Source: Chloroflexota bacterium (GTDB taxonomy: Bacteria > Chloroflexota > Anaerolineae > Promineifilales > Promineifilaceae). From it: 34,093 nt of DNA. The stretch lies in NCBI GenBank assembly GCA_018004935.1, contig JAGNBF010000073.1, positions 1 through 34,093 on the forward strand, written 5' to 3'. Each line of letters starts with the position of its first letter. Positions within the stretch are counted from its first letter, which is position 1. Below the pieces are notes generated by a model that searched no databases, had not been told where the DNA came from, and worked only from the letters and a program-made list of their open reading frames with translations. Positions 6,769 through 29,921 of this stretch are shown here, piece after piece. The position numbers were made by a program, and so were the translations under genes.

Positions 6769-7911
6769 TCAAGGTTTGCCTGAGGTGGTGTTTGGTTTGA
6801 GGAAGCGGTATACCTGGACGGTTTTGGTGGCGATCTGGTCTTGGGTGTAATGGTGTAGAACCCGTTCGCGGCCGCGGGTTTTTAGTTGTTGGCGTAACGA
6901 ACTATCCGTCAGTAAGGCCAGAAGGTGTGCCCGCAGGTGAGGAGCGGAGTCCTCGGGGAAGATTAGCCCGGCTTCTCCAATAACATGAGGGATTTCGCCA
7001 CTATCTGAGCCAATGACAGGAACCCCACAGGCCATGGCCTCTTGGATAACACGCCCAAATTGCTCTTTCCAGTTGGGTAATGTGCGCGAGGGCAAAATGA
7101 CGACATCCATCTGGTGCAGGTAGCCAGGCATCTGGATTGAAGAGATGAGGCCATCAAATATGACTCGTTCATAGATACCCAATTGTTGGGCTAATTGCGC
7201 CAGATGGTCTCGTTCGGGACCTTCACCGGCGATACGGATGCGCCAATCACCGGGCAGGGTCGCGGCCGCACGGAGTACCAGATCTACCCCTTTTTCGGGC
7301 ACAATACGACGACCTACCACACCCAGAGTAAACGGCCGTTCTGGAGAGGGAGTCTCTACTGGATGGAATAGTGTGGGACTGACGCCAAATTGGGGAATAA
7401 TCTGGTATGGGCCGAGGTACCCTTTGCGTTGCCATACTTCTGCCGCGGCCGCGTTGCCCATAATGGCATAATCTACTCCCTTTAGCACCTGTTGTTCCAT
7501 TATATTAAAAGGAAAGGGATAGTGGTTATAAAGGTTTTGCCACGAGAAAAAGAGGGTTTTGGCACCTATGGCCCGGGAATGTTTCCATCCCAGCCAGGTC
7601 GCCAGGTTATACGGTTCTTCATCTAAATGGACAATGTGCGGCCGCAGTTCGGCGAGCCTTTGTTTTAATGTGGGGTAGTAATGAATGTGAAAATGCCCAT
7701 TCCAACGAATGGGATCGACAATCAACCGATAGCCAGTGGTGTGTACTTTTTCCAGGGGTACCGTCCCGGCACGGTCGCGCCATTCGGGTGGTACGATGAC
7801 TGTCAGATCAATATCAGAATGACGCGCAATCGCTTCCAATTTTGTTTGGTAGGCCCCTACCAGGCAGGCCTTAGAAATCATCAGCACACGCCGTTTTTCA
7901 ACCGTTGACAT
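6769..7911 (-). CDS. Glycosyltransferase family 4
   Basis: The protein is a GT-B fold retaining glycosyltransferase of family GT4, transferring a sugar from a nucleotide-sugar donor onto a lipid or glycan acceptor. Seen in sequence are the N-terminal Rossmann half (VLMISKACLVGAYQTKLE), the inter-domain QFGVSPTLFHP, the donor-site GRRIVPEKGVDLVLRA, and the EX7E motif in EQFGRVIQEAMACGVPVIG. I chose the ATG at 7911 (380 residues). The open frame extends nine codons further to a TTG at 7938, but that has no ribosome site. It is divergent from the GT39-like gene, and the pair may act in the same glycan pathway (inference). Four GCGGCCGC octamers are in the gene. The sugar specificity is unknown. 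Confidence 0.88.
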   Translation of the reverse strand: MSTVEKRRVLMISKACLVGAYQTKLEAIARHSDIDLTVIVPPEWRDRAGTVPLEKVHTTGYRLIVDPIRWNGHFHIHYYPTLKQRLAELRPHIVHLDEEPYNLATWLGWKHSRAIGAKTLFFSWQNLYNHYPFPFNIMEQQVLKGVDYAIMGNAAAAEVWQRKGYLGPYQIIPQFGVSPTLFHPVETPSPERPFTLGVVGRRIVPEKGVDLVLRAAATLPGDWRIRIAGEGPERDHLAQLAQQLGIYERVIFDGLISSIQMPGYLHQMDVVILPSRTLPNWKEQFGRVIQEAMACGVPVIGSDSGEIPHVIGEAGLIFPEDSAPHLRAHLLALLTDSSLRQQLKTRGRERVLHHYTQDQIATKTVQVYRFLKPNTTSGKP

Positions 7912-8037
7912 GGGGTGGCTCACTAGAGGAACAGACAAAAGATGAACAACACAAGAGCAACGGCCACAGATAGGTCAGGGTTGTTTGGTGTCTATTTGAG
8001 GGTTTCATTTTTGCTTCTTGGTGTAATAAGGTACAGA

Positions 8038-8065
8038 TTGACACGGGAGGCTATTTTGCTATACT
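8038..8065 (+). promoter_or_regulatory. Sigma70-type promoter of the GT39-like gene
   Basis: TTGACA (8038-8043, perfect consensus) and TATACT (8060-8065) are separated by 16 nt. The expected start site, near 8072, is only a few bases before the TTG chosen as start codon, so the message may be leaderless or nearly so. Confidence 0.7.
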
Positions 8066-8074
8066 TGCCCTGCT

Positions 8075-10027
8075 TTGGCAACTGAACGGCAAGAGAAGCC
8101 CACTCAATTATCTCAAATTAGCCCATCTCCTTACCCGAGATGGGCTTTGTTGCTCCTGGTCTTCCTGGTGGCCGCGTTACTCCGTTTTTGGCAGTTAGGT
8201 GATTTACCCCCTGGTTTATATCGGGATGAAGCCTGGAACGGTTTGGACGCGCTGAAGGTGCTAGAAGGGGAGCTATCCCTCTACTTTTTTAGTAATAATG
8301 GCCGTGAACCAACCTATATTTACCTGGTAGCTCTGTCTATCTGGCTTTTGGGGCGTTCGGCCCTGGCTTTGCGGTTGGGAGCGGCTGTTGTCAGCACGTT
8401 GACAACGCTTACCACTTACCAACTAGGCAAAGTCTGGTTTGGGTGGCGGACAGGATTGTTGGCCGCCTGGTTATGGGCGACAACGGTCTGGCCACTTCAC
8501 CTGGGACGGATTGGCTTGCGGGCGGTATTATTACCTTTTTATCTCTCGCTCAGCTTTTGGTTAGGCACGTGGGCGTATCGTAAACCGGCCTGGTGGCGTT
8601 GGTTGATTGTGGGTGTGGTATATGGGCTGAGTTTTTATACGTATCTGGCGGTGCGTTTTACTCCGGTTATCCTTGTGGGGGTAGGGGTTTATGGGTGGTG
8701 GCGCGGCCGCAGAATGGCTTTGCGGCTGGCTGTGCCCTGGTTCACACTGGGCGCCGGGTTGACTCTGGTTCCTTTGTTCGTTTTGTCCTTACAACACCCC
8801 GAAATTATTAGCGGCCGCGCCGGTCAAGTCTCTCTTCTCAGTCCGGCTATTAATCAGGGCGACCTGTGGGGAACCCTGGCTTTACATATCTGGCAGGCGT
8901 TGGGACTCTTCTTTGGCCAAGGTGATACCATCTTGCGCCATAATCCCCCGGGCCGACCCCTATTCGATCTTTTTATGGTGGGGCCATTCCTTATTGGGAT
9001 GTGGGTGTGTTGGCAGAAACGACATCGTGGAGTAGTCGTTGTCTTGTGGCTGTGGTTATTTCTCATGCTTTGGCCCACCATTTTAGCGGAAGACACGCCC
9101 CATTTTTTGCGTGGCGTGGGCATTTTGCCTGTCGCTCTCCTGGTTCCGGCTATCGGGTTGTCGCAATTATCATCGTGGAATAAACTACATTCTCGTTTAC
9201 GCCTGGGATTTGTTGTCGCCTTGTGTGGGGCGAGTGCGCTGGTTAGTGTATACGATTATTTCTGGGTATACGCCAGACAACCGGATACAGCTTACCTTTT
9301 TGAAGCGGCCGCCCGTGATATGGCGGAAGCCGTACAAGCGGAATCAGAGGAGACAACCGTTTTCATCGATCAACGTTTGTGGGAAGGTTGGCCCTCTATA
9401 CCATTCTTATTAGAGGGAACACGCGCCATTTATCTGTTCCATCCAGAAGAGGGATTACCGATTGCGCCAGGCAATGAATTCGTTATTTATCTCTGGCCTT
9501 ATGCACCGCGCGATTTCCTGACGGCCATTTTTCCCCCTACGGCTACCTTAACTATTGAACAAGGAAGTCTGGCCCGTGGTGATTTAGATCCCACGCCCTT
9601 GCCCTTTGCTGTTCGTTACCAGGTTCAACCCACCAAGTCTAATCTCCCGGTGTTGGCTCAGTTTGGGGGACAATTACTTCTTCATGAAGCCCACTACCGT
9701 CCCCTTTCCATGAACCAACTGGAAGTGACCCTGGCCTGGACTGTGACTCGCCCCATTACCCAGGAATTAAAATTGTTTGTACATCTGTTGGCGGATGATA
9801 CGATTATTGGTCAATGGGATGGGCCGCCGGGGCAGGGGTATTGGTTGAATGAAGCCTGGCCCCCGGAATTGGTCTTGCGGGATCGGATTGTGATTCCGGT
9901 TACAGTGCCGCTGGATATGGCCGAACAGGCTATTTACATTGGTGTATATGATAACCAAACATTGGTGCGTCTCCCTGTTGTGGGTGAAGATGAGGACATC
10001 AGTGAGGATAGATGGCGATTACGCTAA
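8075..10027 (+). CDS. GT39-like polytopic membrane glycosyltransferase
   Basis: About 11 membrane helices in residues 25-400 are followed by a soluble C-terminal domain (400-650) that reads as beta-rich. The first outer loop carries Asp-Glu in PPGLYRDEAWNG, the catalytic-type acidic pair of GT-C enzymes (PMT/ArnT/GT39), which use polyprenyl-phosphate sugars at the outer membrane face. GREPTYIYLVALSIWLLG and LAAWLWATTVWPLHLGRIGLR are typical of the family. No ATG is available before the first helix and an in-frame TGA lies at 8039, so the start must be TTG 8075 or a later rare codon. Acceptor and donor are unknown. It is divergent from the GT4 gene. Confidence 0.82.
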   Translation: MATERQEKPTQLSQISPSPYPRWALLLLVFLVAALLRFWQLGDLPPGLYRDEAWNGLDALKVLEGELSLYFFSNNGREPTYIYLVALSIWLLGRSALALRLGAAVVSTLTTLTTYQLGKVWFGWRTGLLAAWLWATTVWPLHLGRIGLRAVLLPFYLSLSFWLGTWAYRKPAWWRWLIVGVVYGLSFYTYLAVRFTPVILVGVGVYGWWRGRRMALRLAVPWFTLGAGLTLVPLFVLSLQHPEIISGRAGQVSLLSPAINQGDLWGTLALHIWQALGLFFGQGDTILRHNPPGRPLFDLFMVGPFLIGMWVCWQKRHRGVVVVLWLWLFLMLWPTILAEDTPHFLRGVGILPVALLVPAIGLSQLSSWNKLHSRLRLGFVVALCGASALVSVYDYFWVYARQPDTAYLFEAAARDMAEAVQAESEETTVFIDQRLWEGWPSIPFLLEGTRAIYLFHPEEGLPIAPGNEFVIYLWPYAPRDFLTAIFPPTATLTIEQGSLARGDLDPTPLPFAVRYQVQPTKSNLPVLAQFGGQLLLHEAHYRPLSMNQLEVTLAWTVTRPITQELKLFVHLLADDTIIGQWDGPPGQGYWLNEAWPPELVLRDRIVIPVTVPLDMAEQAIYIGVYDNQTLVRLPVVGEDEDISEDRWRLR

Positions 10028-10034
10028 GGGTTCA

Positions 10035-10100
10035 CTCGAAATTAAGTTGGGTGGCTCGGTCGGGAGACCGGCCACAACAAACTCAAAAGTTATTTGCGAG
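10035..10100 (+). repeat. A-module repeat, copy 2
   Basis: The core GTGGCTCGGTCGGGAGACC followed by GGCCACAACAAACTC and AAGTTATTT matches copy 1 and, on the opposite strand, 22190-22245 very closely. The core GGTCGGGAGACC is a near-perfect palindrome. Confidence 0.7.
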
Positions 10101-10113
10101 CGAACCCTAAGGG

Positions 10114-10190
10114 TTCGTAAAAATATAACTTCCCAGTTTAGACGTGACAGGTTTCCGAAAACCTGTCACGTCTTGATGGAACTTAATCTT
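10114..10190 (+). repeat. B-module covarying hairpin, copy 2
   Basis: A 14-bp perfect stem (10141-10154 with 10159-10172) begins GACGTG where copy 1 has GACCTG, and the partner arm changes from CAGGTC to CACGTC, keeping the pairing. The flanks AATATAACTTCCCAGTTTA and GGAACTTAAT match the copy at 22090-22165. Confidence 0.85.
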
Positions 10191-10211
10191 TTACAGGCCC
10201 TAAGGAATGAG

Positions 10212-10277
10212 AACTAAATAACTTGTTCGCTGGGAGTGGCACGGTCAGGAGACTGGCCACAGCAAAAAGGGAAGTTA
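10212..10277 (+). repeat. A-module repeat, copy 3
   Basis: From AACTAAATAACTTGTTCGC through GTGGCACGGTCAGGAGACT to GAAGTTATTC it is nearly identical to copy 1 at 5276-5348, with a short divergent stretch before the right end. Confidence 0.75.
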
Positions 10278-10399
10278 TTCTTAGACAGTTCCTAAGATAT
10301 GGTGATGAAATTGAGTGAACATTCCTTGTGTAGAATGATTTTGTCAATACACTGTGTGTGATTCAGGAAAGCACGCTACACAGGGGCAGGAAAAAGATT

Positions 10400-11437
10400 A
10401 TGGGTATGAGTCGCTTAGGGCGGATGATAGGGATGGGAGGAATCGCGGCCGCGTTGTGGCTGACCCTCATTTCCTTCTCCGCTATGCCTGTGGCGGCAAC
10501 CAATGGGGCAAATTTAATGATGGGACAGGTTGAGGCCACCGCAACCCCTGCCCCATCGTTTACCCCCACCTTCTTACCCCCAACCCCAACTCCTAACGCT
10601 GAAGGGCTTATTTTGATAACCGTTCAGGCGAATGATACTTTGTGGTCAATTGCCGCTCGTGCTGGTCTTACCCTGGAGCAGTTGTTGGAATACAACGATC
10701 TGACACGGGATACCTTCATTCAGCCGGGACAGCAGTTGATTATTGGGTTTGCAGAAACCGGGGCAACGCCTACTCTCACCGCAACCATGACGGTTACGGT
10801 TGTCTCAACGCTCACCGTAACGCTGACAGGTTCCCTTACCCCGGAACCAACGGCCACCTCTGTGCCAACGCCCACTGTTACCCCCACCCCTGAGACTGAG
10901 AATCAAGGTGGGTCTCTTTGCCTGACGGCATTTGATGACGCCAATCAGAACGGGTTATATGATGCGGGTGAAGCATTGCGGGCGGCCGTCGCCTTTACTG
11001 TTACTCATGCGGATAACCAAACCGTTACCAGTAATTATGTGACGGATGGTGTCACTGAGACATACTGCCTTGAAGGTCTGGAACCAGGCAATTACCTGGT
11101 TACCCGCTCTAAAGTAACGAATGAACAGGTGACAACGCCCGATAACTGGGCGGTTGCGATGGTAAATGGGGCGGTGACTAACCTGGTTTTTGGCAGTTAT
11201 ATCGAAGATGTATCTGTGGTTGTGGCCGAAGGGGAAACAGACGCGAACACGGAAGGGAACGAGACAGCCGCAACCGGCACAGGTTCGCTTAATGAAGCGG
11301 AAACGACGGTTACCCCTGAAGAAGATGGGGGGGGACGTGTGGTGACGGGTATTGTCATTGTTGTTGTAGTTCTGGCCGTGTTGTTACTGGTAGGTGTTTT
11401 GGCGGTCATTCTTAGTGCCCGCCGCAATACTGTATAA
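10400..11437 (+). CDS. Secreted LysM and B-repeat domain protein with C-terminal membrane anchor
   Basis: The ATG at 10400 has an AGGAAAAAG ribosome site; an upstream GTG at 10358 extends the frame but has none. A signal peptide (about 1-34) is followed by a Thr/Pro linker and a LysM domain (about 72-116: VQANDTLWSIAARAGLT, IQPGQQLIIG), which binds GlcNAc-containing glycan. A second Thr/Pro linker leads to a SdrD/CNA-B-like beta domain (about 170-266) with the Ca-type motif FDDANQNGLYDAGE, then a membrane helix (about 310-338) and a short Arg tail. It is probably an envelope protein held at the surface. The next gene has the same rear architecture, so the two look like related surface proteins. 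One GCGGCCGC lies in the signal-peptide codons. Confidence 0.85.
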   Translation: MGMSRLGRMIGMGGIAAALWLTLISFSAMPVAATNGANLMMGQVEATATPAPSFTPTFLPPTPTPNAEGLILITVQANDTLWSIAARAGLTLEQLLEYNDLTRDTFIQPGQQLIIGFAETGATPTLTATMTVTVVSTLTVTLTGSLTPEPTATSVPTPTVTPTPETENQGGSLCLTAFDDANQNGLYDAGEALRAAVAFTVTHADNQTVTSNYVTDGVTETYCLEGLEPGNYLVTRSKVTNEQVTTPDNWAVAMVNGAVTNLVFGSYIEDVSVVVAEGETDANTEGNETAATGTGSLNEAETTVTPEEDGGGRVVTGIVIVVVVLAVLLLVGVLAVILSARRNTV

Positions 11438-17120: not shown

Positions 17121-18584
17121 TTAAGGGATAACTGTTTCTCTCGAGTCTGGTAAGATAGGCGGCTCTGGTGAGGCTGTGGGAGGGATTCCCCCGCCGCCGC
17201 CGCCACCTCCACCATCCGTGGTTGGTTGGGCGGTGACTGTGTAGGGCAGGGTCAGGGTGGGCATGGCCGTAGCTGTTGCGGTAGGGATTCTACGGGTTGG
17301 CGTATTGGTATTGGTGGGAATGGCGGCAATGGTTGGTTCCACGGCGGCGTCTGTGGCAATTATCTCAGGGGTTGCCACGTTGTCCTGACCGGTTTGTGTA
17401 AGATTAATGATCGGTACGGTGGCCGCTTCCTGGTGTTGGATTCCTTCAGGGATGGGTGTCTGGCCAGAAACAGTTTCTACTGCATCTACGGCATCTGGTG
17501 TAGCTACTTCTGAGTAGTTATTGAGCAACCCCAAACCGGTAACGGCGATAACAATCATTACCACTAAGAATAAAATTGCGGCCAGACCGAGAAAAATCCA
17601 GGGCCAACGAGTCCGTCTGTTTTGCTCAACGACTGGGGGTTGGTTTATGGGACGTGGGGGGGTGGGGGTGGCTGGAATTGCGGCCGCAACAGGAGCCGTG
17701 TAAACCGGTAAGGTAGCCGTTGGCATTTTGGGCAACCGCCCCGTTGTCAGTAAGGACGCTTTTGGTTTACCGGGAACTTGGAGTAAAAGCGCGGTAATGT
17801 TGTCGCGGCCGCCGCCCTGATTTGCCTTATTAATGAGATCATGAGCGGCTGATTGTAATTGCGACTGATATACCTGTATGGAATTCTCAATGATGTCATC
17901 CTCAATCATATCACTCAACCCATCACTGCATAATAAAACAATATCACCGGGTTGGAGAGGATGTCCCTGGTTTTTCTTGGTGTCATCGCCAATATGCTCT
18001 CTGTCTAATACCAGCCGATGATCAACTTCAACCTCAGGAAATCCACCTAAAAAGCGTTTGATGACATTACGATTGGGATGTGTTTTCGCTTGCTCTTTGG
18101 TCAGTAGCCCTACCTGGATGGCTTCTTGCGCCCAGGTGTGATCAACCGTTATTTGCCTGAGCTGGCCGTTGCGAAAGAGATAAATGCGGCTGTCACCCAC
18201 ATAAGCGGTATAAAGGTTCTGCTCGAAAATGGCAACCAGGACCATGGTTGTGCCCATACCGGACACTTCACGATGAGATTGGCTGTACTCATAGACGGCT
18301 TTATTGGCGGCCAGAATAGCTCGCTCCAAATGGCCGTTGATATTGCCATTGATTTGCTTTTGTTGGCGAAAATAGTTTTGAATGGCTTCTACAGCCAGGG
18401 AACTGGCTACTTCGCCCGCTGTTTGCCCACCTACCCCATCCGCAACTACCCCAATGTAGAGGGGTACACCATCGCCATTGTTCCAGGCGAAGAAACCATA
18501 GGAATCTTCGTTATGTTTACCACTCATTCCTTCGTGGGTGCCGTGTCCGATGAGGAGTTCTTCGATTTTTTCAATGGCTTCCAT
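17121..18584 (-). CDS. Membrane-anchored PP2C-type protein phosphatase
   Basis: Residues 10-270 are a complete PP2C (Stp/PstP-type) phospho-Ser/Thr phosphatase. Metal-site motifs are NEDSYG (Glu26-Asp27), VADGVGGQTAG (Asp49-Gly50), GMGTTMV, YVGDSRIYL (Asp131), LLCSDGLSD (Asp221) and GGGRDNIT (Asp261-Asn262). A Pro-rich juxtamembrane stretch leads to one helix (about 327-354). Beyond it is a ~130-residue outer region rich in Thr/Pro/Val, with a run of nine glycines near the end and no recognisable domain. The catalytic part should be cytoplasmic. It is the last gene in a same-strand run with three FHA-domain genes, which makes their phosphothreonine ligands likely substrates (inference). No kinase is adjacent. 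Confidence 0.92.
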   Translation of the reverse strand: MEAIEKIEELLIGHGTHEGMSGKHNEDSYGFFAWNNGDGVPLYIGVVADGVGGQTAGEVASSLAVEAIQNYFRQQKQINGNINGHLERAILAANKAVYEYSQSHREVSGMGTTMVLVAIFEQNLYTAYVGDSRIYLFRNGQLRQITVDHTWAQEAIQVGLLTKEQAKTHPNRNVIKRFLGGFPEVEVDHRLVLDREHIGDDTKKNQGHPLQPGDIVLLCSDGLSDMIEDDIIENSIQVYQSQLQSAAHDLINKANQGGGRDNITALLLQVPGKPKASLLTTGRLPKMPTATLPVYTAPVAAAIPATPTPPRPINQPPVVEQNRRTRWPWIFLGLAAILFLVVMIVIAVTGLGLLNNYSEVATPDAVDAVETVSGQTPIPEGIQHQEAATVPIINLTQTGQDNVATPEIIATDAAVEPTIAAIPTNTNTPTRRIPTATATAMPTLTLPYTVTAQPTTDGGGGGGGGGIPPTASPEPPILPDSRETVIP

Positions 18585-18803: not shown

Positions 18804-21047
18804 TTATCGTTTAGGTTGATGAGGCATATAAGGTTGTGTGGACACATCATCGGGGTCTGAATTACCGGATGAACGTGATGGCGGCTGTTGTTGGGGCGGC
18901 TGCGGCCGCGCCTGGGGCTGTTGTTGCGGTGGTTGCGGCCGCATTTGAGGTTGCTGTTGTGGTGGTTGCGGCCGCGCCTGGGGTGGTTGTTGCGGTTGTC
19001 GGGGTACGCCCGGCTGATTTTGTGGCATGTAATACTCTGTGTTGACATTCTCATCAACCGGCGGTGATGCCTGCGGTGACGGTTGGGCCGGATTCCAGGC
19101 CATCGTATGTTCAAGATCCGGACCAGGTTGAGCGGCAGGTGTGAGTTTTTCTGCCAGGGCAAAACGAACATGCACCTGACCGAAATGAATCTCATCGTTG
19201 TTACGCAATACTTGCGGTGTCAAGCCAACTCGTTCAAAGTTGATGTAGGTTCCACTGGCACTCCCCTCATCTATAAGAAGGAATTGCCCCTTTTCCTGAC
19301 GAATAGTCGCATGAAGTCGTGAAACACTTTTATCATTGAAGACAATTTGGGCATGAGTGCGATCACGACCAATTTTGACTTCATTTGTGGTAATGGCAAT
19401 GGGGCTGGTGTATTCAGCGGCATGTTCCAGCGGTTGCAGGGTGGCTTTGGAAGCGATAAAGGCGGGCATAATAATCTGCGTCGCATCGGCGTTATCCACT
19501 GCCATGCCGGTTACGGGGGCAGGGGGTGGCACGGGCACCGGTTGAGGTTCTGCCCGTCTGCGCCGACCGATGAAAACAAGGACCAACACACCCATAAAGA
19601 TGAAAGCACCAAACGCCAACAGCCCGCCTCCAACTGCCAAAACGGTCTTGTTTTCGGCCAGGAAGTCGCTACCACTGGTTCCTTCCGTTTCACCGTTTGC
19701 GGTGGCTTCATTTGTGGTGTCAGGGGCGGTGGTGGTTTCAGGAACGGTAGTAGACGCGGCCGCAACGGCCGGTTTCTCAATCGTAATGCTTAACGCTAAC
19801 GCGTCACTTTCACTGGTCAGGTTAAGTTCATCAACCAGTTCAACTCCCAGATTGTATTCGCCCGCATCCAGTTCACTGATATCCCAGGCAAATTGTAGCA
19901 ATCCATTGGCATCAAGGGTGGGTGACTCGAGCGTGATTTGCTCTTTACCATTGACCAACAAGGTCGCGGCCGCGAGGGAACGGGGGTGATTGTCTGGCCA
20001 GATAACCTGGGCTGGGACTGGTTGGCTCAGCGGTTCCATCTCTGTCAATGGCGTATCGGCCGCTTCTGCTACCCGCACAATCGTCTGACTGTTGTCTAAC
20101 AAGATTTGCACGGTGGGTGGTTCAACCGTTAAATTAACTAATTCATTAGCCGTCTGACCATTTAAGCTCACCTGTAACATATGCTCCCCACTGCGGGCTA
20201 TTTGGGAACGATAGCGGACTTCCGTTTGTTGCCCAAAAGTTGCTATGGTTGTGAGCAAAGGGGTGGCATCGGCCGCAGTGGGCATGTGCAAGTACGACCC
20301 GCCAGTTGGTTGGGTTAAATTATTGACGTTTTCAATTTCATTGTTGTCGGCCCGACTACCCAGAAGATAGGCATAATAAGCGATACCGTTTTGTTGAGCA
20401 GAAGAGAGCAGAGCCGCAAAATCCAATTGGTTATCTAATTCACCCCCATCTGTAAAGAGGACAATGGCGCGGAACCGCTGACCATCACTGGCGGCCAATT
20501 TACTGGTTGCCGCATCTAACATCGCTTGCAAAGGGGTCGCTTTTGGGGCATCTGGAACATAGAAGTTGATGGCATTGATAAGTTCATTGGGGAAAACCGC
20601 ATTTTCCAACAAGAATTTGGCACCATCATAAGCTTCGTTGGGTACGATGACATGAATCCGGTCAAGCTGTGACTTATTCATTAAATTTTGGGCAAACGCC
20701 ACAAGCGCATCCCGTACCTGTTCGCGGCGACTTAACTGGCTGTTATCTCTGGTGTTGATGCTGGTATTCGCATCTATAACAAACACGACTTCAATGCCAG
20801 TGTTAACAGGGCTGGTCTGTAAGTTGGTAATAGCCGTTCCATTTTCAGTTAATTGCAGAGAAGAGAAATCGGTGACAGGTGTGCCATCGGCCGCGGCCGC
20901 GAATAGTTGCACCTTCATTTCCGGGAAAGCCGACGCATCTACCTGGGTAATGCGGGTAATGGCTGTCCCCTGAGCCAATACAGCCCCGGCCAGACTCAGC
21001 AATACTATCCCAAGAATGACGTTAATCCATTGTCGCCAATGTTTCAT
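18804..21047 (-). CDS. VWA-TM-FHA membrane protein
   Basis: The ATG at 21047 has AAAGGAAAC upstream; an in-frame GTG 24 codons earlier lies in a repeat and was not used. The 747-residue protein has a signal peptide (to about residue 25) and a von Willebrand A domain (about 85-275) with MIDAS-type D92-x-N-T-S96 and FTDGG (Asp200). An Ig-like region (about 300-425) and a Thr/Glu linker follow. After the single helix (about 468-494) comes an RRRR stop-transfer. A cytoplasmic FHA domain (about 550-630) has Gly560-Arg561, SRLH (576-579) and SGTYIN. The 110-residue tail is rich in Pro and Gln and contains three 11-residue repeats. VWA outside and a phosphothreonine reader inside suggest signal-dependent assembly or adhesion. 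Confidence 0.9.
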   Translation of the reverse strand: MKHWRQWINVILGIVLLSLAGAVLAQGTAITRITQVDASAFPEMKVQLFAAAADGTPVTDFSSLQLTENGTAITNLQTSPVNTGIEVVFVIDANTSINTRDNSQLSRREQVRDALVAFAQNLMNKSQLDRIHVIVPNEAYDGAKFLLENAVFPNELINAINFYVPDAPKATPLQAMLDAATSKLAASDGQRFRAIVLFTDGGELDNQLDFAALLSSAQQNGIAYYAYLLGSRADNNEIENVNNLTQPTGGSYLHMPTAADATPLLTTIATFGQQTEVRYRSQIARSGEHMLQVSLNGQTANELVNLTVEPPTVQILLDNSQTIVRVAEAADTPLTEMEPLSQPVPAQVIWPDNHPRSLAAATLLVNGKEQITLESPTLDANGLLQFAWDISELDAGEYNLGVELVDELNLTSESDALALSITIEKPAVAAASTTVPETTTAPDTTNEATANGETEGTSGSDFLAENKTVLAVGGGLLAFGAFIFMGVLVLVFIGRRRRAEPQPVPVPPPAPVTGMAVDNADATQIIMPAFIASKATLQPLEHAAEYTSPIAITTNEVKIGRDRTHAQIVFNDKSVSRLHATIRQEKGQFLLIDEGSASGTYINFERVGLTPQVLRNNDEIHFGQVHVRFALAEKLTPAAQPGPDLEHTMAWNPAQPSPQASPPVDENVNTEYYMPQNQPGVPRQPQQPPQARPQPPQQQPQMRPQPPQQQPQARPQPPQQQPPSRSSGNSDPDDVSTQPYMPHQPKR
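18895..18993. repeat. Three 33-bp tandem repeats, each with a GCGGCCGC
   Basis: Units 18895-18927, 18928-18960 and 18961-18993 encode the Pro/Gln-rich 11-residue repeats in the tail of the VWA-FHA protein. The octamer is at the same place in each (18902, 18935, 18968). Other positions differ between units. Confidence 0.85.
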
Positions 21048-21075
21048 TGGATTGTTTCCTTTTTGGTTCTTCAAA

Positions 21076-21140
21076 AGAGCCTGTGTTGGCCTTGTGCCTG
21101 CCTCGTGTGGGGCAATCACAAGGGTTGCCCGTACCCCACG
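21076..21140 (-). repeat. 59-bp palindromic element, copy 2
   Basis: Read on the minus strand, GTACGGGCAACCCTTGTG, then ATTGCCCCAC, then GGCAGGCACAAGGCCA match the 897-955 element with few changes. It occupies most of the spacer upstream of the VWA-FHA start codon. Confidence 0.7.
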
Positions 21141-21163: not shown

Positions 21164-22009
21164 CTAGGGCAAGATCACTAAAGCCCCATCGTCCCAGAAT
21201 GTTTCCTGTTGCAAACGTACCTTATCTGGTGATGACCAGGTGAAAACCGTGATTTTACCGGATGAAGCGACAGCATCCACACATTTAATTTGATACCCAT
21301 CTATTGGGTTAAAATAACTAGACCACCTGACAGTTCCGGCATTGGGATCAAGATTGCCGGTGGGATCAATTCCTACCCGCATGAACATATTTGCCGGATC
21401 CACCGATAATCCCTGATTACAATCCGCTCCCTCCGCGCACGAAAAACCCTGCCCCCAAATACTAAATTGCACATGTGTACCCGCTGTGATCTGGGCATTC
21501 TCCACAATCTGATAAACCCCACCCTGGTATTGGGCCTGCCGCTTGTAGAGTTGCTGGGCCGAGCCGCCACTATGCACCCGATTACCGCTGGTAGCTTGTT
21601 GATAATCCGGTTGTTGGCTGGTGGCGGAGCCACGTAACCACCAGGCTATCCACCCATCGGCTACAATAATCGCATCATTTCCCTGAGCGCGAAAATTGCC
21701 TTCAAAACTGGGGTTGACCAATAAATTATTTCCCCCTGCCGGGCAGGCGATAGCTCCAGGGATGAGTGGCTCTGGTGTGGGGGTATCCGTTGGCGTCGGA
21801 CGACGGGTAGGCATGGTAATAGGTTCAGTCGTGCTGGTTGGCGTTGTAATGACAGATATTGCGCCTAATGTCGGTGTGGCAGGGGCAACCGTGGGGGCAA
21901 TAGTGGCCAATGGGACTGGTGTTTCACCTAGGAGAGTGGCACATGATAATGTGCCAAACCATAAAATAACTAGAAGCAGGTGGAGACGACGATTTGTAAC
22001 TGAGGCCAT
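21164..22009 (-). CDS. Secreted jelly-roll (CBM-like) protein, possible lipoprotein
   Basis: The 281-residue protein starts with a signal of 22 residues ending TLSC; Cys23 could be a lipobox cysteine, though Thr at -3 is not ideal. A Thr/Pro linker (about 30-85) leads to a jelly-roll domain (about 90-281) starting LLVNPSFEG and containing GVYQIVENAQITAGTHV and MRVGIDPTGN. This is clearly related to the domain in the 11649-12953 protein. The last residues WDDGALVIL form the closing strand. It lies between the FHA-glycosidase and VWA-FHA genes on the same strand. The ligand is unknown. No ribosome site is evident before the ATG, so the start is less certain. Confidence 0.78.
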   Translation of the reverse strand: MASVTNRRLHLLLVILWFGTLSCATLLGETPVPLATIAPTVAPATPTLGAISVITTPTSTTEPITMPTRRPTPTDTPTPEPLIPGAIACPAGGNNLLVNPSFEGNFRAQGNDAIIVADGWIAWWLRGSATSQQPDYQQATSGNRVHSGGSAQQLYKRQAQYQGGVYQIVENAQITAGTHVQFSIWGQGFSCAEGADCNQGLSVDPANMFMRVGIDPTGNLDPNAGTVRWSSYFNPIDGYQIKCVDAVASSGKITVFTWSSPDKVRLQQETFWDDGALVILP

Positions 22010-22264: not shown

Positions 22265-24799
22265 TCAGGCCTCGCAAGATCGGAAAACGGCGGAATTGAG
22301 ATTATCACATACAGGGCATTTGTCGTCTGGCCGGAGAATGGCATAACCCGCTTGTGGATCTCGGCTGTATTCCTCAAAGTCAATATTCCACACAATGAAC
22401 ATTTGAACCATGCCGGAACAGCGAGCACGGATTAAGGAATCTTCTAACCAGATGCCCATTTCCCGTTCATCGGTTCCTTCGGCCCATAAGAAACCTGTGG
22501 CACCTACCTGTGCCAGTGTCTGATCAAAACCATCGGCGCTAAGGAAGCCTATTTCGGTAAAACAAAGGGGCATGATATTGCCGCTGGCTATTTCGTCCGG
22601 GGTGTTAAAGGAATTCCAGTAGAGTTCGACTAAAGGCCAGAAGTACCAGGAATAATGTCCCGCTCCATTATCAGCCGGATGACCGGTGCGTTCATTGGGG
22701 GGAGTAGCCCCAGAATTGAAGTGCATCCCCAGGCAGTCCATAAATTGTTCGGCACCAGCGGCCTGCATGTCTAACAAAAAGCGGCTGTCGTCACAACCCT
22801 GGGCTGTACAACCGCCGCCATAGGCACCTGTGGGGCCTAAGGCGCCACTAACCACCATAACACCAGGGTTGACGGCTTTAATCGCTTCATAGGAAAGGCG
22901 TAATAGAGTGGTGTATTCTGCACCACTTACCTGACCATCGGGCCAGTGTGTAGTCAGGTTGGGTTCGTTCCAGACCTCAATGGCATCTACAGTTCCGGCC
23001 AAAATGCTGACAAACTGGGCATATTGTTGAAAATAGCCGCGGCCGCCAGCCGCCACTTCTTCTTTATTGCCCACTACCGAAGCAATCACCTTAAACCCCT
23101 CATCCTTTATCTTTTTTAAATCCGCGGCCGCTGAAACAGCATCAGCACCCGGAGAATATTGAATTTGCTTCTTGATCCAGGTCATCCCGGCATCGTCGGC
23201 CACGGTTAGATTGGCGATGTCATTGATGTGACCGCCAAAGGCAAAATTAGCGATGGGGGTTGGTTTTGGAGTAGAGGTTGGCTCAAATGTACAGGGATCC
23301 GTATCAGCCAGATCGTTGATACCATCGCCATCGGTATCGGCCCGGTTGGGCTGGGTGCACCCTTCCAGAGCTTCCTGACCATCGGTCAACCCATCGGCAT
23401 CAGAGTCCAGATCCTTGGGGCGGGTATTCCATACATTCACTTCATCGCCATCGCTTAAGGCATCTCCATCTGTATCTGGGTCGAGAGGTTCGGTTCCCAG
23501 GTCAGTTTCCTCGCCATTGGTCAGGCCGTCTCTGTCATCATCTAATTCGCGCCAGGTGGCGGTTTCGGTCAGGGAGAGTTCGGCGGTCGCGGTAGCGGTG
23601 GCGGTGGCGGTAGCGGTGGGTGTGGGTGTGGGTGTATCAAATTTGCCTAGCTTGTTGAAACTATCGAAGGTGAAAAAGGCAAACAGGGGGACCAAAAAAC
23701 AGCAGAGGACGAGCAGAATGACAGGAATCCAGATAGGGATGATATTTAGCTGGTTATAAATTAGCGCCGCATCTGGGCTGAAGGAGCGTTGGTTGGTGGT
23801 GACGGTGACGTTGAGGGTGTGTCGTTTACTCTGGCCGATCCAGATGCGTTTGTAAGGACGAACGGTGATGAAATTTTCCCGGTTTTGTTGGGGGGCTACC
23901 TGCGCGGTGCGCGGTTCCACCTGAATCTCCAGGGTATTGCTGGGGTCTACAACATCTAGCCGATAGTCAGTGCGGGCGTTGCCCTGGTTTTCGATGTTCA
24001 GGTTGAATGTGCCCCCAGAGCGACTTACGAGAGGATTGGGCTGAACGGAAAGGATGAGTTGATCAAAGGGGGTGACTTCTAGTTCGGCCTGGGCTTCGGC
24101 GACCATTTCCTGTCTTTCGTTAAAGACAGCAATGCTGATAGGATGGATGCCTGCGGCGGTGCGGGTGCTGATGGGGGGATGGAAATCTAGGGTGAGATTT
24201 TTGCTATCACGCGGGAACAGTTCGATGTTGCCGCGTGGTAGAGTTACCCAGGTGTTGGGGACGCCCGATATGGATAGTTTGTAATGGTCTACGATACGAC
24301 CTTCGTTGGTGATTTTGAAGGGGAGAGAGGCGCGGCCGCCTGGGGTGACAGTCACGCGATGCTCTATCAGTTCAATGCCAGCATCAGATGAGGCGGGGGG
24401 GCGCTTCTGGATAGGGGCACTGCCACGTCCCCCATTTCGACCGGATTGGGCCGGGTTGAAGACTTCAGACTCAACATCATTGGAGAAGTCAGTTGGCGGC
24501 CGCATACTGACATTTTTTAATTGGGCCGGGCCTACGTGAATGATTCCATCGGGGGGAACGGGTTCGCGCACATTTGCCAACAACTGTTTGGTGTTTAGCC
24601 AGGTGCCATTATTTCCCCCTAAATCAGTAACATACACCTGTCCATTACTGATTTCCACGACGCAATGTTGACGCGAAATACGATTATCGGCGATATGAAT
24701 ATCTGCGTCAGAAGTTCGCCCAATAATATATTGGTTCTTGATTAACTCCAGAGTATCTACTCGGCCATCCGGGTAACGAATTTCCAGCGTAGGACGCAT
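22265..24799 (-). CDS. FHA - beta domains - TM - TSP3 repeats - clan-A glycoside hydrolase fusion
   Basis: The 844-residue protein begins with a cytoplasmic FHA domain (about 1-95: Gly27-Arg28, ISRQH 41-45, NNGTWLN 63-69). Two Ig/NEW3-like beta domains follow (about 140-345), then a helix (about 353-378) and a Thr/Pro/Ala linker. Next are thrombospondin-3/EF-type calcium repeats (about 418-505, DxDxDG forms). The (beta/alpha)8-type glycosidase module (about 515-844) has acid/base Glu612 in EVWNEPN and likely nucleophile Glu749 in LCFTEIGF, as in GH5/GH39-type clan A. The enzyme should face outward. AAAGGAAT precedes the ATG. The substrate is unknown. The beta domains between FHA and helix would be cytoplasmic, which is unusual for such folds. 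Confidence 0.9.
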   Translation of the reverse strand: MRPTLEIRYPDGRVDTLELIKNQYIIGRTSDADIHIADNRISRQHCVVEISNGQVYVTDLGGNNGTWLNTKQLLANVREPVPPDGIIHVGPAQLKNVSMRPPTDFSNDVESEVFNPAQSGRNGGRGSAPIQKRPPASSDAGIELIEHRVTVTPGGRASLPFKITNEGRIVDHYKLSISGVPNTWVTLPRGNIELFPRDSKNLTLDFHPPISTRTAAGIHPISIAVFNERQEMVAEAQAELEVTPFDQLILSVQPNPLVSRSGGTFNLNIENQGNARTDYRLDVVDPSNTLEIQVEPRTAQVAPQQNRENFITVRPYKRIWIGQSKRHTLNVTVTTNQRSFSPDAALIYNQLNIIPIWIPVILLVLCCFLVPLFAFFTFDSFNKLGKFDTPTPTPTATATATATATAELSLTETATWRELDDDRDGLTNGEETDLGTEPLDPDTDGDALSDGDEVNVWNTRPKDLDSDADGLTDGQEALEGCTQPNRADTDGDGINDLADTDPCTFEPTSTPKPTPIANFAFGGHINDIANLTVADDAGMTWIKKQIQYSPGADAVSAAADLKKIKDEGFKVIASVVGNKEEVAAGGRGYFQQYAQFVSILAGTVDAIEVWNEPNLTTHWPDGQVSGAEYTTLLRLSYEAIKAVNPGVMVVSGALGPTGAYGGGCTAQGCDDSRFLLDMQAAGAEQFMDCLGMHFNSGATPPNERTGHPADNGAGHYSWYFWPLVELYWNSFNTPDEIASGNIMPLCFTEIGFLSADGFDQTLAQVGATGFLWAEGTDEREMGIWLEDSLIRARCSGMVQMFIVWNIDFEEYSRDPQAGYAILRPDDKCPVCDNLNSAVFRSCEA

Positions 24800-24870: not shown

Positions 24871-27312
24871 TTAAGGTTCATCACCGAGGATTGTGAAACG
24901 GAATTGTTTTATGGGTTGCTCTATATTGTTCATCGAATCTTCGGCAATTGCAAGAAGCAAAAAGTCGTCGGGACCTAACTGAATTCCCTGGCCGACACCA
25001 TCTGTACCACAGGTGTGAGGTGACTCATTGGTTAGGGTGAAACTTCCTTCATATACCTGCCAGGTCTGTCCACAATCCAGACTATATTGTATCTCTTTAA
25101 TGGTAGAACGTAATGATCCACGTTCCAGACCCCGCAGGGAGATAGTGACCAACCCTTGATACACATTATCACCCACCTTATTGCCTTGTACACGTACCTC
25201 CGTAAAGGGGGGCGTACAGTCCCGGTTGTTGGGGGCCACTAGTATGTATTGGCCTGTGCCGCGCACTTCAGCTTCGTAGATTAACTTGCCATCACTATCT
25301 TCGGTGCGGATAGTGGGTACGGCAATCCCCACCGGATTATTATTGCCATAGGCGATGAACTGGAAAACTGCGTCTTCAGGATCGTTGCAGACCAGGGTTT
25401 CGGGTCTGACTGTTACCTGGCGGCCGCGTGGCGGTCCTTCCACAATGGGCACGTCTTCGCTATTGCGGGCCACGTAGTTGAAGCCCGGGTGGATAACGGA
25501 CCAGTCTACAATTGGGTAGAGGTCTACTTTGACTTCTGTTTGAGGCAGGCAGGCATCTGCTTCTTCTTCCACGGCTACCAGGGGGTGAATCCAGAGATAT
25601 TGGCTGATAATGCCGTCACGTTCTTTGCCGGTACGGTCTACCCAGGGTTGTGACCAGGGATCCAGGGGGTATTTTTCGCTGGGGAAGTAGCCGTAAGGGT
25701 CTATTTTTTCATAAATGGTGAAGAGGCCATCGGAGTTGAGATCTTGCCGGACCTCAAAATGGAGATGAATACCGGTACTGCGGCCCGTGGTTCCCATTGT
25801 GCCGATGCGGGTTCCGGCGCTAATTTCCGCGCCTTCTTCCATCGCCATCATGTTACGAAAAAATTCATCATCGGCCAGGTGGAAGTAGAGGGTGGCATAG
25901 TTGCCTTCTGCGCCCCGGTCATGGCTCAGCCAGACCATATGGTTGCCGTCGTCGTCTATGGTGGCTGTGTGGAGGAAGCCGTCCGCGGCCGCGAATACGG
26001 GTGTTTGCGGGGTGCGTGGGTCGCCTACGGCGGCCGGAGCAAAATCTATGCCTGCATGACCACTGTAATAATCAAATTGGGCATCGGATCCGGCGGTCGT
26101 TTGGTCCTGGCTAAAGGCATCAAAACTGAGCGAACCATCAAAAATAAGCATTGTGGTAGCGACATCATCTGCTTCTATCCCGCCAAAGGCAGGGGGATAA
26201 ATGGGGTATTGGTGATCAAAGAAGCTGTTGATGCGGCCGCCTACACGGCTCCGCTGGGAAATCAAACGGAAGTCATCCCCATTGCCCCCAAATTGTGGCT
26301 CAATGCCGGTATAAGGGAAGGGGAGTTCTAGCCAGCCACTGCCTTCTTCGGTTGCGGTCGCAACGGCACATTCATCATTGTTGGCTGTCTCGTCAATTGT
26401 TTCTTGGGTGGGGAGTTCGTTTATGGGGAGGGTGGCAATGATGGGGCGGGAAGCAGTGGGAGAGATGAAGGGGGCCAATGTGGGTGTCGCTGGACCATTA
26501 TCGCCAATGGTGGTGTTGCCCGGTGTCTCATCGTTGTTGGCCCACATGGCCATGAAGACAATGACGGTAATACAAAGGGTAAGGATGGTTCCCATGCCTA
26601 CCAGGGCCACTAACCAACGACTCATTCCGGAGCCGGTGCTGGCCGCGGCCGCGTCTGGCTTTTGCGCCTGTCCAAGTGTGTAGTACAACCGGGCATAACT
26701 TACTTCCAGGGCCTGAGCTTGATCCCAGAGTTGGGGCTGGTTTAGGGGAAGAGGGACACCCGCAATTTTGGCCGGGTTTTTTTGGCTCAGATTAATCACC
26801 TGCACCCGGTTTCCCTGTAGTGATAGGCGACAATGTTCCGGTTCGACTTCGCCTACCATCGGGCGAATATCACAACGAACACCAGAACCAATGAGCGCAA
26901 ACCCTTGTTGTAAGGTGTATTTTGTGGGTAGGGCTTCGCGGCAGGTGATGTTTGCTACCAGTTCAGTAAGGGGAGTCGGAATTTCTTCCGGTGGTGGCGG
27001 TGGTTCTGGTTTGGTTTCGGTTTGTTGTTGATGGATGGTGAACGGCCCGATAGTTAAGGCTTCATCAGGCGGCCATACGGTGGTGGTGCGAGGGGTAAGT
27101 TTGCGGCCGCGAAAGATCGTGCCATTGGTACTCCCTAAATCCATAACCGCCACAGTTCCATTGGCGACTGTAATCTGCAAATGCTGGCGTGATAAATGAT
27201 TACTGGCAACCACCAGATCATTATCCTGGGTACGCCCCAATTGGTACTGCCCTTCTGCTAATGTGCGGCGGAGTCGCTCTTGGCCCGCTTCTTGAATAAT
27301 TAATTCAACCAT
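24871..27312 (-). CDS. FHA - degenerate FHA - TM - M23 (LytM) peptidase fusion
   Basis: I used the ATG at 27312 (813 residues); an in-frame GTG six codons earlier is possible. Residue numbers here count from that GTG. FHA1 (about 8-100) has Gly32-Arg33, LSRQH (46-50) and STNGT (67-71). FHA2 (about 125-218) has lost the Arg and Ser of the binding site (IGSG, EPEHC) and may only be structural. A helix (about 238-262) leads to an outer linker and an M23 domain with Zn ligands His425 and Asp429 (GHAGID) and His522/His524 (IHLHFEV), typical of glycyl or cross-link endopeptidases. The last ~250 residues are beta-rich. The gene starts the same-strand run, 71 bp before the FHA-glycosidase gene. Confidence 0.9.
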   Translation of the reverse strand: MVELIIQEAGQERLRRTLAEGQYQLGRTQDNDLVVASNHLSRQHLQITVANGTVAVMDLGSTNGTIFRGRKLTPRTTTVWPPDEALTIGPFTIHQQQTETKPEPPPPPEEIPTPLTELVANITCREALPTKYTLQQGFALIGSGVRCDIRPMVGEVEPEHCRLSLQGNRVQVINLSQKNPAKIAGVPLPLNQPQLWDQAQALEVSYARLYYTLGQAQKPDAAAASTGSGMSRWLVALVGMGTILTLCITVIVFMAMWANNDETPGNTTIGDNGPATPTLAPFISPTASRPIIATLPINELPTQETIDETANNDECAVATATEEGSGWLELPFPYTGIEPQFGGNGDDFRLISQRSRVGGRINSFFDHQYPIYPPAFGGIEADDVATTMLIFDGSLSFDAFSQDQTTAGSDAQFDYYSGHAGIDFAPAAVGDPRTPQTPVFAAADGFLHTATIDDDGNHMVWLSHDRGAEGNYATLYFHLADDEFFRNMMAMEEGAEISAGTRIGTMGTTGRSTGIHLHFEVRQDLNSDGLFTIYEKIDPYGYFPSEKYPLDPWSQPWVDRTGKERDGIISQYLWIHPLVAVEEEADACLPQTEVKVDLYPIVDWSVIHPGFNYVARNSEDVPIVEGPPRGRQVTVRPETLVCNDPEDAVFQFIAYGNNNPVGIAVPTIRTEDSDGKLIYEAEVRGTGQYILVAPNNRDCTPPFTEVRVQGNKVGDNVYQGLVTISLRGLERGSLRSTIKEIQYSLDCGQTWQVYEGSFTLTNESPHTCGTDGVGQGIQLGPDDFLLLAIAEDSMNNIEQPIKQFRFTILGDEP

Positions 27313-27640
27313 TATGTTCTTTATGAGCACAACACGGCTACACGCATAATTCAGGCTGGCCCGTGATCCTTTGTCATCCGCAAATGTTCCTTATCCTGGT
27401 CCAAATGATAAGCGTTCAGTTGAGTTACTTCAACGGATTAAGAATTTGAGTTTAGAGTTCAGAGCTAGAGCTAGAGCGAGAGCGAGAGGGTTTTCCAGAG
27501 TAATTCCCTCTCGCTCTCGCCTCCAGTTTCTAAATCCACTGAAGTAATCCAAAATGGCCTAAAATCGTCTCTGAACTGAACGGTTATGTCCAAATGATAA
27601 AGGTTGTACAGAGCAAACACGATAAACAGGCATAACCCAA

Positions 27641-27886: not shown

Positions 27887-27953
27887 AGGGAACAGGTTGA
27901 GAATATCGGTTACGAACCATTATCATTATAACACGAGTGATGGGGCACGAACG

Positions 27954-29921
27954 ATGAACAAAAAACTTCTCTTGATGCGAACACCAACTCTAGATAGAAA
28001 GACAGTTTCTTTGGCACGATTCCGTTTGAGTCGTTATGGAATCTTGTGGCTGTTGTGGCTGGCGGCGTGGTGGTTCACGGGCCAGTTCGCGGCCGCGCAA
28101 CCAACTGCCAGCCGTCTGATCATCAGCAGTGCCAATGCCGACAGTGCCCCCACGATTGAAATGAGCCTCCTGGCTATTGATGGAGGGGGGAACCTGCTCG
28201 ACCTGTCTACCCAAACCCTGACTATTTTACACAATGGACAACCCATTCCTCCCGAAAATATTCAGGTTACTGGCACCAAAGAAGTGGGAACCTTCATCTT
28301 ATTGGTTTTGGATATCCCACCCGGGGTACAAGGGGAACTGACCGCCATTCAGGCGGCCGTCGAGCAACTGGCCTCGGAACAGAATATGCGTGAAGGAATT
28401 GATTACGTGGCGGCATATCGTGTTGATGAAGCGGCCGCGACGCCTTTGTTAGAGCCAGCAAATTTCCGCAACAGCGTACTCAATCTTTTTGCGACACCCC
28501 TTACCCCTACCGGTGGGGCCACAGCTTTATTAGACAGCCTCATGGGGCTGGTCAACAACCTGGAAAGCCTGAAGCCCGATAGCGGCATGGCCGCGGCCAT
28601 CGTTCTCATGTCTGATGGTACAGATACGGTCAGTACCCAATATACCCAGCCCGATGTTCCCATCCGAGCCGCAGAATTGGGAGTGCCCATACATACCATC
28701 TGGCTAGATAACGTCAATGTCCAGGAGAACAAAGAAGCCGGACGTACTTATATGGGTCAACTGGCTCAGGGAACCGGTGGCGTTGCCACCACTGTAGATA
28801 ACCTGGAAGAGATTCAAACGATCTGGACCCGAATTGCCGCCTTCCGTACTCACACCATTGTTCAGTACACCGTTCCTGGTATTGCTGGGGGCACATACCC
28901 GGTTATCGTCGGTTTACAAGGCTCACCCGGGGTACAGGCCAGCACCTCCGTGACCGTCCCTGCCGGTGCGCCCAGCGTGGTGATTGACTTGCCCGCCGAA
29001 AGCCGCACCCTCACCCTCGTAGACTTAAATCAGCCGGTAGAACTTTCCTTTGCCACAACAGTTACCTGGCTCGATGGGGTAGAACGTTCCCTGACCAAAG
29101 CCCAACTCATTGTAAATGGCATTAGTGTTCAGGAGTTGGATGTGACGACATTGGATCGGTTCACTGTAGCCATTAATAATTTCGCCTTTGGCACGAACCG
29201 GGTACAAATTGCTGTCACTGACAGCGAAGGCAATCGTGCTACCAGTCCAGAGATAGCCTTGACCATTAACCAGGGAGCGGAAGAAGTAATTCCTGAAGCG
29301 GTGCAACCCCCAGGAGCACTTGCCAGTGTCTGGGAAAAAGTGGCCAGTGTACAAACCTACCTGATTGGTTGTGTTATCGTTATCGTTCTGTTCTTTGTTT
29401 TTGCCGGATTGCTGATTCTCTTACGCAAGTTTCCCATCTTGCGCCTGCTTCGTTTGGATACAACCTTGCGCAAAATTCCCTGGTTGCGCCCGTATATTGC
29501 CAATCTCCAATATGCCCAATCTGCCGGACGACAGGCCCAGCATTATGGGGGCAAATTAAGCCGGTACACACCAGAGGTTCGCGGCCGCACGGCCAAAGAT
29601 GAAGCCGCCATTCGTCCTGATCCCTTCCTGGAAGTGTTAGAATCAGTGAGCCGGGTCAATAAACGAATTGACCTGGACAAACCAGAAATGAAGATGGGAC
29701 GCTCACCAAAGCAGGCAGATATTGCCTTTGAAGATGATGCCACCGTATCTCGTCACCACTGCACCATTGTTAAAGAAGGGGGCGATTATCGGGTTTATGA
29801 TGATAAAAGCACCAGCGGTACTTTTGTCAATGATCAGCGGGTTCCAGAATATGGTCTGCAATTGGTAGATAGTGACGAAATCCGTATGGGTGCGGTCAAA
29901 CTGCGCTTCCGCCAGCCCTGA
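27954..29921 (+). CDS. Second VWA-TM-FHA membrane protein
   Basis: The ATG at 27954 (655 residues) was chosen over a TTG at 27897 because the signal segment (about 28-48) follows it at a normal distance. The outer part has a VWA-like domain (about 110-300). Its MIDAS motif is broken: LDIPPG stands where DxSxS is expected, though LMSDGTDT remains. Ig-like beta regions follow. A helix (about 469-492) precedes a basic juxtamembrane stretch and a C-terminal cytoplasmic FHA domain (about 570-655) with MGRSP, VSRHHC and TSGTFVN. The order is the same as in the 18804-21047 protein, and the two look paralogous. It is divergent from the five-gene run, and the holB start is 13 nt past its stop. Confidence 0.9.
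   Translation: MNKKLLLMRTPTLDRKTVSLARFRLSRYGILWLLWLAAWWFTGQFAAAQPTASRLIISSANADSAPTIEMSLLAIDGGGNLLDLSTQTLTILHNGQPIPPENIQVTGTKEVGTFILLVLDIPPGVQGELTAIQAAVEQLASEQNMREGIDYVAAYRVDEAAATPLLEPANFRNSVLNLFATPLTPTGGATALLDSLMGLVNNLESLKPDSGMAAAIVLMSDGTDTVSTQYTQPDVPIRAAELGVPIHTIWLDNVNVQENKEAGRTYMGQLAQGTGGVATTVDNLEEIQTIWTRIAAFRTHTIVQYTVPGIAGGTYPVIVGLQGSPGVQASTSVTVPAGAPSVVIDLPAESRTLTLVDLNQPVELSFATTVTWLDGVERSLTKAQLIVNGISVQELDVTTLDRFTVAINNFAFGTNRVQIAVTDSEGNRATSPEIALTINQGAEEVIPEAVQPPGALASVWEKVASVQTYLIGCVIVIVLFFVFAGLLILLRKFPILRLLRLDTTLRKIPWLRPYIANLQYAQSAGRQAQHYGGKLSRYTPEVRGRTAKDEAAIRPDPFLEVLESVSRVNKRIDLDKPEMKMGRSPKQADIAFEDDATVSRHHCTIVKEGGDYRVYDDKSTSGTFVNDQRVPEYGLQLVDSDEIRMGAVKLRFRQP

Follow-up and report, generated by a model that had tools for sequence, protein, structure and literature searches.

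Bacterial receptor-type Ser/Thr kinases, those of the PknB type, have one transmembrane (TM) helix, a regulatory part inside the cell and an ectodomain outside. Here we describe a protein with this plan, encoded in a 34,093-nucleotide stretch of DNA from a Chloroflexota bacterium (assembly GCA_018004935.1, contig JAGNBF010000073.1), hereafter called the window; its gene lies at 22265-24799 on the minus strand. The same plan is found in Chloroflexota relatives of the order kinase-FHA-Ig2-TM-TSP3, and the FHA-Ig2-TM-TSP3 part of the window protein is homologous to these kinases. Unlike receptor-type Ser/Thr kinases, however, the window protein lacks a kinase domain, and as its ectodomain it carries an enzyme fold whose catalytic residues are intact. 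It probably descends, by loss of the kinase domain, from a receptor kinase whose ectodomain was a glycosidase.

Contractile machines provide another comparison. The type VI secretion system (T6SS) has its own membrane complex. PMC5813230 describes a T6SS threonine phosphorylation pathway, PpkA/PppA/Fha, in which Fha binds phosphorylated TssL. As in that pathway, a kinase, a phosphatase and an FHA protein are found around a contractile system in the present case; unlike in T6SS, the FHA domains here sit on membrane proteins as well as on tail protein I. In Streptomyces, the contractile injection system (CIS) has a bitopic membrane adaptor, CisA, which is needed for firing (PMC12237407). Likened by description, the window protein would also be bitopic, with the N-terminus inside and a folded domain outside. 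The CisA gene sits just downstream of baseplate genes (PMC12237407), a position shared by the family of modules described below and not by the window gene. The terms "FHA" and "kinase" are absent from the main text of PMC12237407. A search of the available literature found no paper combining FHA, contractile injection and Chloroflexi/Chloroflexota, and the one paper among those listed that combines CIS, protein kinase and FHA domain concerns T6SS. For the enzyme, the closest solved fold and best profile match is the clan-A glycosidase PslG of Pseudomonas aeruginosa (PDB 5bx9). PslG works in Psl production, with E165 and E276 as key residues, according to PMC9075953. Identity to the window enzyme is about 17%, and, unlike in the window protein, no FHA or TSP3 part is seen in the matched PslG chains.

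Domain organization of the window protein

The gene is an intact open reading frame with an ATG start and an 844-residue product. Pfam, hydropathy and AlphaFold2 give the order FHA, two Ig-like domains, TM helix, TSP3-like repeats and clan-A-like glycosidase, in agreement with the fusion proposed in a first-pass annotation of the sequence. No kinase family is among the Pfam matches of the whole protein. All coordinates below refer to the minus strand unless stated otherwise. The N-terminal domain (residues 1-97, 24509..24799) has the FHA fold and its ligand-motif residues: it matches Pfam FHA (E 1.8e-15, residues 24-88), aligns to an FHA structure (VIA, Z 17.6, root-mean-square deviation (rmsd) 1.8, 100 residues) and keeps the GR/SRxH motif, of which G27, R28, S42 and H45 are nearly invariant in a 17-row alignment. 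It is followed by a disordered linker (residues 100-136, 24392..24502; predicted local distance difference test (pLDDT) < 50) with no hydrophobic segment. Two Ig-like beta-sandwiches come next, at residues 140-242 (24074..24382) and 248-350 (23750..24058), with block pLDDT of about 81-95, and then the helix (residues 357-384, 23648..23731). The AlphaFold2 model of residues 1-395, made from 16 rows from kinase relatives, has a mean pLDDT of 83.6 and a predicted TM-score (pTM) of 0.52, and its relative domain placement is untrustworthy.

Hydropathy was scanned in 19-residue windows. The single hydrophobic segment peaks at a Kyte-Doolittle value of 2.92 at 358 (358-376); outside the TM region (starts 336-381, excluded for this maximum), the highest value is 1.21 at 737. 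The scan rules out a second membrane segment between the FHA domain and residue 140, so that the one clear helix seen in the first pass stands. The acidic repeats at residues ~414-503 (23291..23560), predicted to be extracytoplasmic, were earlier called calcium-type repeats. They do look TSP3-like, but the TSP3_bac match in the window protein is weak (19.5 bits against a cut-off of 25); at the same place in six of seven kinase relatives scanned it reaches 53-86 bits, the exception being a Roseiflexus kinase. The glycosidase-like domain covers residues 519-838 (22286..23245).

Kinase relatives and descent

The FHA-sandwich-sandwich-TM module stands behind a Ser/Thr kinase in paralogues from the window genome (L004/L053, L005/L055) and across the order, of which we surveyed 56 genomes. 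Relatives in other genomes carry the kinase, FHA, the sandwich pair, one TM helix and mostly TSP3, with variable outer parts, LamG-like in one case (L097, by Pfam) and unnamed elsewhere. The FHA-glycosidase fusion occurs in five of the 56 genomes: the window genome (G000), G044, G045, G046 and G055. G044, G045 and G046 belong to genus g21, with proteins about 50% identical to the window protein, whereas G055 belongs to another family. The same domain order, which the first-pass annotation had suggested looking for, was thus found in the g21 genomes and, with a kinase domain in front, in the 1147-residue protein of G055.

The kinase motifs are VAFR / HLAMRPKN / EVG in G055 and VAFR / HLGLRPEN / DLG in its relative from G054. 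Both lack the catalytic Lys and the HRD Asp, and one has lost the DFG Asp too; the orthologue in the sister family thus retains a kinase domain, but a dead one. This orthologue is syntenic: G055 (L101) has homologues of all six window genes (PP2C, VWA-FHA, exported protein, FHA-glycosidase, FHA-M23, VWA-FHA), and their order is unchanged, although extra genes lie between them. It is because this syntenic orthologue carries a dead kinase domain that we read the window protein as a kinase-less descendant. In a 26-row tree of the module, the window and g21 proteins group together (100/100) and join the G055 and G054 pseudokinase proteins (100/96), with the Roseiflexus kinase next (95/94). Left out of this tree were the split orthologue pieces L009, L040 and L038, as well as L056, L096 and L098, the second L086 kinase, the second-copy row L090:3872 and same-contig duplicates in L086, L087/L047, L088, L089, L093 and L097.

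A chance or isolated fusion is ruled out by five further genomes with the fusion or its kinase-bearing counterpart (seen in part in G054). Across 396 genomes of the class, a match from FHA to enzyme at E <= 1e-75 was present only in G000 and G055 among the matches listed; the three g21 genomes are not in the rows of this search, and G054 is listed with no match at that threshold. The window protein would show, in a concrete instance, how a receptor kinase loses its kinase and becomes a phospho-readable enzyme at the cell surface; the syntenic, dead-kinase intermediate is still present in the sister family.

Other degenerate forms were seen in the window genome. Two kinase-like-FHA-sandwich proteins (L053:9296-11599 and L054:5846-7759) stop immediately behind the TM helix, and their kinase motifs are degenerate (HGSLHPAN/DSAV and HGGLFPGS/DWGA), as expected of membrane-tethered pseudokinases with no outer part. 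At L054:1605-5819, a ParA/MinD-like domain (by eye) is fused in frame before a degenerate kinase-FHA-sandwich-TM protein.

The glycosidase domain

The glycosidase alignment comprised 41 domains, that of the window and 40 from other loci; duplicate loci (L004, L005, L007, L008, L010, L011) and matches covering <=240 residues were left out. E612, E749 and H693 are invariant in all 41. The two glutamates, already singled out as catalytic in the first pass, are the putative acid/base in a WNEPN motif (E612, GAA, 22964..22966) and the putative nucleophile in an FTEIG motif (E749, GAA, 22553..22555); both codons were verified. In clan GH-A (glycoside hydrolase clan A), the catalytic glutamates lie at the ends of strands 4 and 7. 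In the AlphaFold2 model (22 rows, pLDDT 79.4, pTM 0.84), the domain forms a (beta/alpha)8 barrel; E612 directly follows strand 4, and E749 lies within strand 7.

PslG was ranked first for this model by both Foldseek (E 1.4e-12) and VIA (Z 23.8, rmsd 3.1, 288 residues). The top rows are PslG, GH53, GH39, GH26 and GH1 enzymes, several of them within one Z unit; these are clan-A families. A 29-domain profile searched against the PDB also found PslG first (E 8e-7), followed by a GH53 enzyme and beta-xylosidases; the PslG match spans the N-terminal half only, with the WNEPN glutamate aligned. Family searches were less telling. No glycosidase family is among the Pfam matches of the whole protein at E up to 1, and the domain scanned alone gave Glyco_hydro_39 as best match (E 0.11, 11.7 bits against a cut-off of 26) and no match in NCBIfam; other aligned members match GH53, GH113 and GH5. 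Altogether, because of the invariant glutamates, the barrel model, the Foldseek and VIA rankings and the profile match, the predicted clan-A glycosidase fold with both catalytic glutamates is well supported, as the first pass had supposed.

Homologous glycosidase domains, 39-47% identical, occur in LysM or SH3 proteins (domain names by eye), some with N-terminal hydrophobic segments of export type (by eye). Tandem relatives, as judged by eye, lie at L102:4620-7198 and L103:189-2763 in two sister-family genomes.

Membrane topology and the two sandwiches

The window protein is predicted to be bitopic with its N-terminus inside, FHA and sandwiches being cytoplasmic and the enzyme outside. The sandwiches are placed inside because homologous proteins carry a Ser/Thr kinase, and in one case also a ParA-like domain, on that side. 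The enzyme is placed outside because homologous glycosidases occur in secreted-type LysM/SH3 proteins. The reverse topology, with FHA outside, is ruled out, since the kinase and ParA-like relatives share the FHA side. The first-pass annotation had likewise put the beta domains in the cytoplasm, and had offered either a novel topology or an intracellular spacer as explanation. The topology is no novelty: it appears to be the ordinary one for receptor kinases of this lineage. Of the spacer proposal, the intracellular location agrees with the kinase-bearing homologues.

Behind that earlier puzzle was the premise that NEW3-like folds (NEW3 being the Pfam NPCBM-associated family) are normally extracytoplasmic. 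This premise is unsafe. The best fold matches include cytosolic HYDIN/CFAP-type proteins of the cilia central apparatus and CEP192 SPD-2, as well as extracellular RbmA; the sandwiches thus resemble cytosolic ASH/HYDIN/SPD-2 domains no less than they do secreted Ig domains, and the second one aligns to a sialidase domain (VIA, Z 11.8, rmsd 2.0, 96 residues). Since the query was the whole 1-395 model, the sandwiches were tested less well than FHA. The two sandwiches are there in the model, but the NEW3 label was not borne out: NEW3 is not among the Pfam matches at E up to 1, an absence that excludes nothing, and the sub-threshold Ig-like matches in this region are FixG_C, Ig_VWA7 and Cep192_D3. 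The Ig-like fold is common to several families, and the modelled fold does not reveal the compartment.

Linkage of the module to contractile injection systems

Twenty of the 56 genomes have a strong baseplate J homologue, among 24 with a match at E <= 1e-30; G010, G014, G033 and G043, with weaker matches (E 1e-30 to 1e-60), were left out. A module gene lies within 10 kb of baseplate J in 14 of the 20, against 0.34 expected from module density, and in none of G006, G007, G009, G023, G041 and G044. Similarly, 10 of 14 named module loci have a CIS gene in their flank and four have none. The pseudokinase clusters of G054 and G055 adjoin CIS genes. In G055 these are, by Pfam, FHA-Tail_P2_I, Baseplate_J, gp25, Phage_base_V, CIS_tube-LysM and gp19 tube; all but one of the six have homologues in the stretch examined in G054. 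Tail protein I is fused to FHA (FHA-Tail_P2_I) in 5/5 scanned, and in Roseiflexus sp. SKYG45 such a gene, cut by the contig end, is 1.6 kb from a kinase-FHA-sandwich-TM gene.

Roseiflexus CIS particles are reported to be free in the cytoplasm, with no anchoring, and Roseiflexus CIS reportedly has no close homologues of CisA (PMC12998442). The FHA-Ig-Ig-TM module is a testable substitute for CisA in this system. The linkage to the baseplate favours, as we infer it, docking for the module family; docking on demand is possible, and for the window protein a conjecture. A broader proposal can be made, to which we give a rather low chance: the module, usually headed by a Ser/Thr kinase, would be the membrane adaptor that is missing from the cytoplasmic CIS of Chloroflexota, contacts between phosphothreonine and FHA domains, including that of tail protein I, would dock the particle when needed, and kinase-less forms that bear an enzyme, the window protein among them, would remove polysaccharide or cell wall where the system fires. 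The window protein may thus be a clue to how CIS meets the membrane, and it is the linkage of its parent module to CIS that is of wider interest.

In Ardenticatenaceae bacterium CFX1, large unnamed proteins flank the CIS-linked kinase (L093:2846-4495 and 7743-11249); these are possible CIS cargo or accessory proteins.

Proposed mechanism and alternative explanations

The ancestor would have been a Chloroflexota receptor-type Ser/Thr kinase (kinase-FHA-Ig-Ig-TM-TSP3-exodomain) with a secreted-type clan-A glycosidase as exodomain. Its kinase domain would have decayed and then been lost, leaving FHA, two cytoplasmic sandwiches, the helix and the enzyme. The cytoplasmic FHA may read a phosphothreonine on a partner, which Ser/Thr kinases would put on and the neighbouring PP2C would take off. 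This reading would gather the glycosidase with the co-encoded FHA-M23 peptidase and the two VWA-FHA proteins at one place, where the glycosidase may cut envelope or matrix polysaccharide outside the cell. Taken as a whole, from descent through FHA-mediated gathering to outside cutting, this is the explanation we favour and hold to be fairly likely.

Computation gives the domain order, the single TM helix, the folds, the intact catalytic residues, and the orthology and synteny with a homologue that bears a pseudokinase; phosphothreonine binding, catalysis, substrate, co-assembly and regulation are what we infer. Several points weigh against the explanation. We saw no gene for a kinase within the window's own cluster. 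The topology rests on homology, because the charge pattern around the helix was undecided by eye. The G044, G045 and G046 assemblies are fragmented, and contig ends or a frame break divide the gene there; in G054 only the kinase-FHA-sandwich part is seen, because it runs off its contig. The glycosidase tree agrees with a single origin of the fusion, but weakly (91/70). Finally, near-invariant positions are changed in the window enzyme: residue 618 is H where 40/41 rows have E, 524 is H in place of Q and 548 is Y in place of W. These departures hint at an altered substrate site, and specificity may differ. As a separate observation, the G044 orthologue is broken between two frames at L009:2393-2411, by sequencing error or a true break.

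The sandwiches might merely hold FHA off the membrane, with FHA as a simple tether and the enzyme constitutively active. The disordered linker before the sandwiches, the position of the pair right at the membrane and the scarcity of invariant columns (8 of 257 in a 15-row alignment) are consistent with such a passive role, which we nevertheless find doubtful: the pair is kept in kinases across wide divergence and co-located with CIS genes, beyond what a spacer needs. It is quite improbable that the glycosidase fold acts as a glycan sensor, binding a ligand and signalling inward like a receptor with little turnover. In the sister family this domain is indeed the ectodomain of a receptor-kinase-like protein, but the two catalytic glutamates and H693 never vary among the aligned domains, that of the window included, and the kinase that would relay the signal is dead or absent.

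A further alternative is that the FHA-Ig-Ig-TM module docks cytoplasmic CIS at the membrane, with the window protein as a version that bears an enzyme and opens polysaccharide at the site of firing. The proximity to baseplate J, the CIS genes flanking most named loci, the tail protein I-FHA fusions and the clusters of G054 and G055 all argue for it. However, although the window protein appears bitopic, no CIS gene is near: neither the window nor the other 5.9 kb of its contig yielded one, and the CIS cluster of this genome sits on another contig (C151) with its own kinase module. Moreover, the FHA-glycosidase gene is present in G045 (92% complete) and G046 (69%), neither of which has a baseplate J match, and PMC12998442 reports that the Roseiflexus particles lay free in the cytoplasm. 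We hold this reading to be somewhat unlikely.

Gene neighbourhood

The neighbours named in the favoured gathering explanation are conserved in synteny. The next upstream gene ends 71 bases from the window gene and encodes an FHA-FHA-TM-peptidase M23 protein (24871..27330). This M23-FHA gene occurs in five of the 56 order genomes, and in all five its direct neighbour is the FHA-glycosidase gene (in G054, a partial homologue of it). Downstream lie an exported-type protein with a carbohydrate-binding-like region (by eye; 21164..22009) and no Pfam match, a protein with a VWA-like domain outside, a TM helix and FHA inside, as predicted (18804..21119), and a PP2C protein phosphatase with one TM helix (17121..18584). 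The divergent neighbour, on the plus strand, is a VWA-like (by homology)-TM-FHA protein (27897..29921). Pfam, hydropathy and synteny were used for these assignments.
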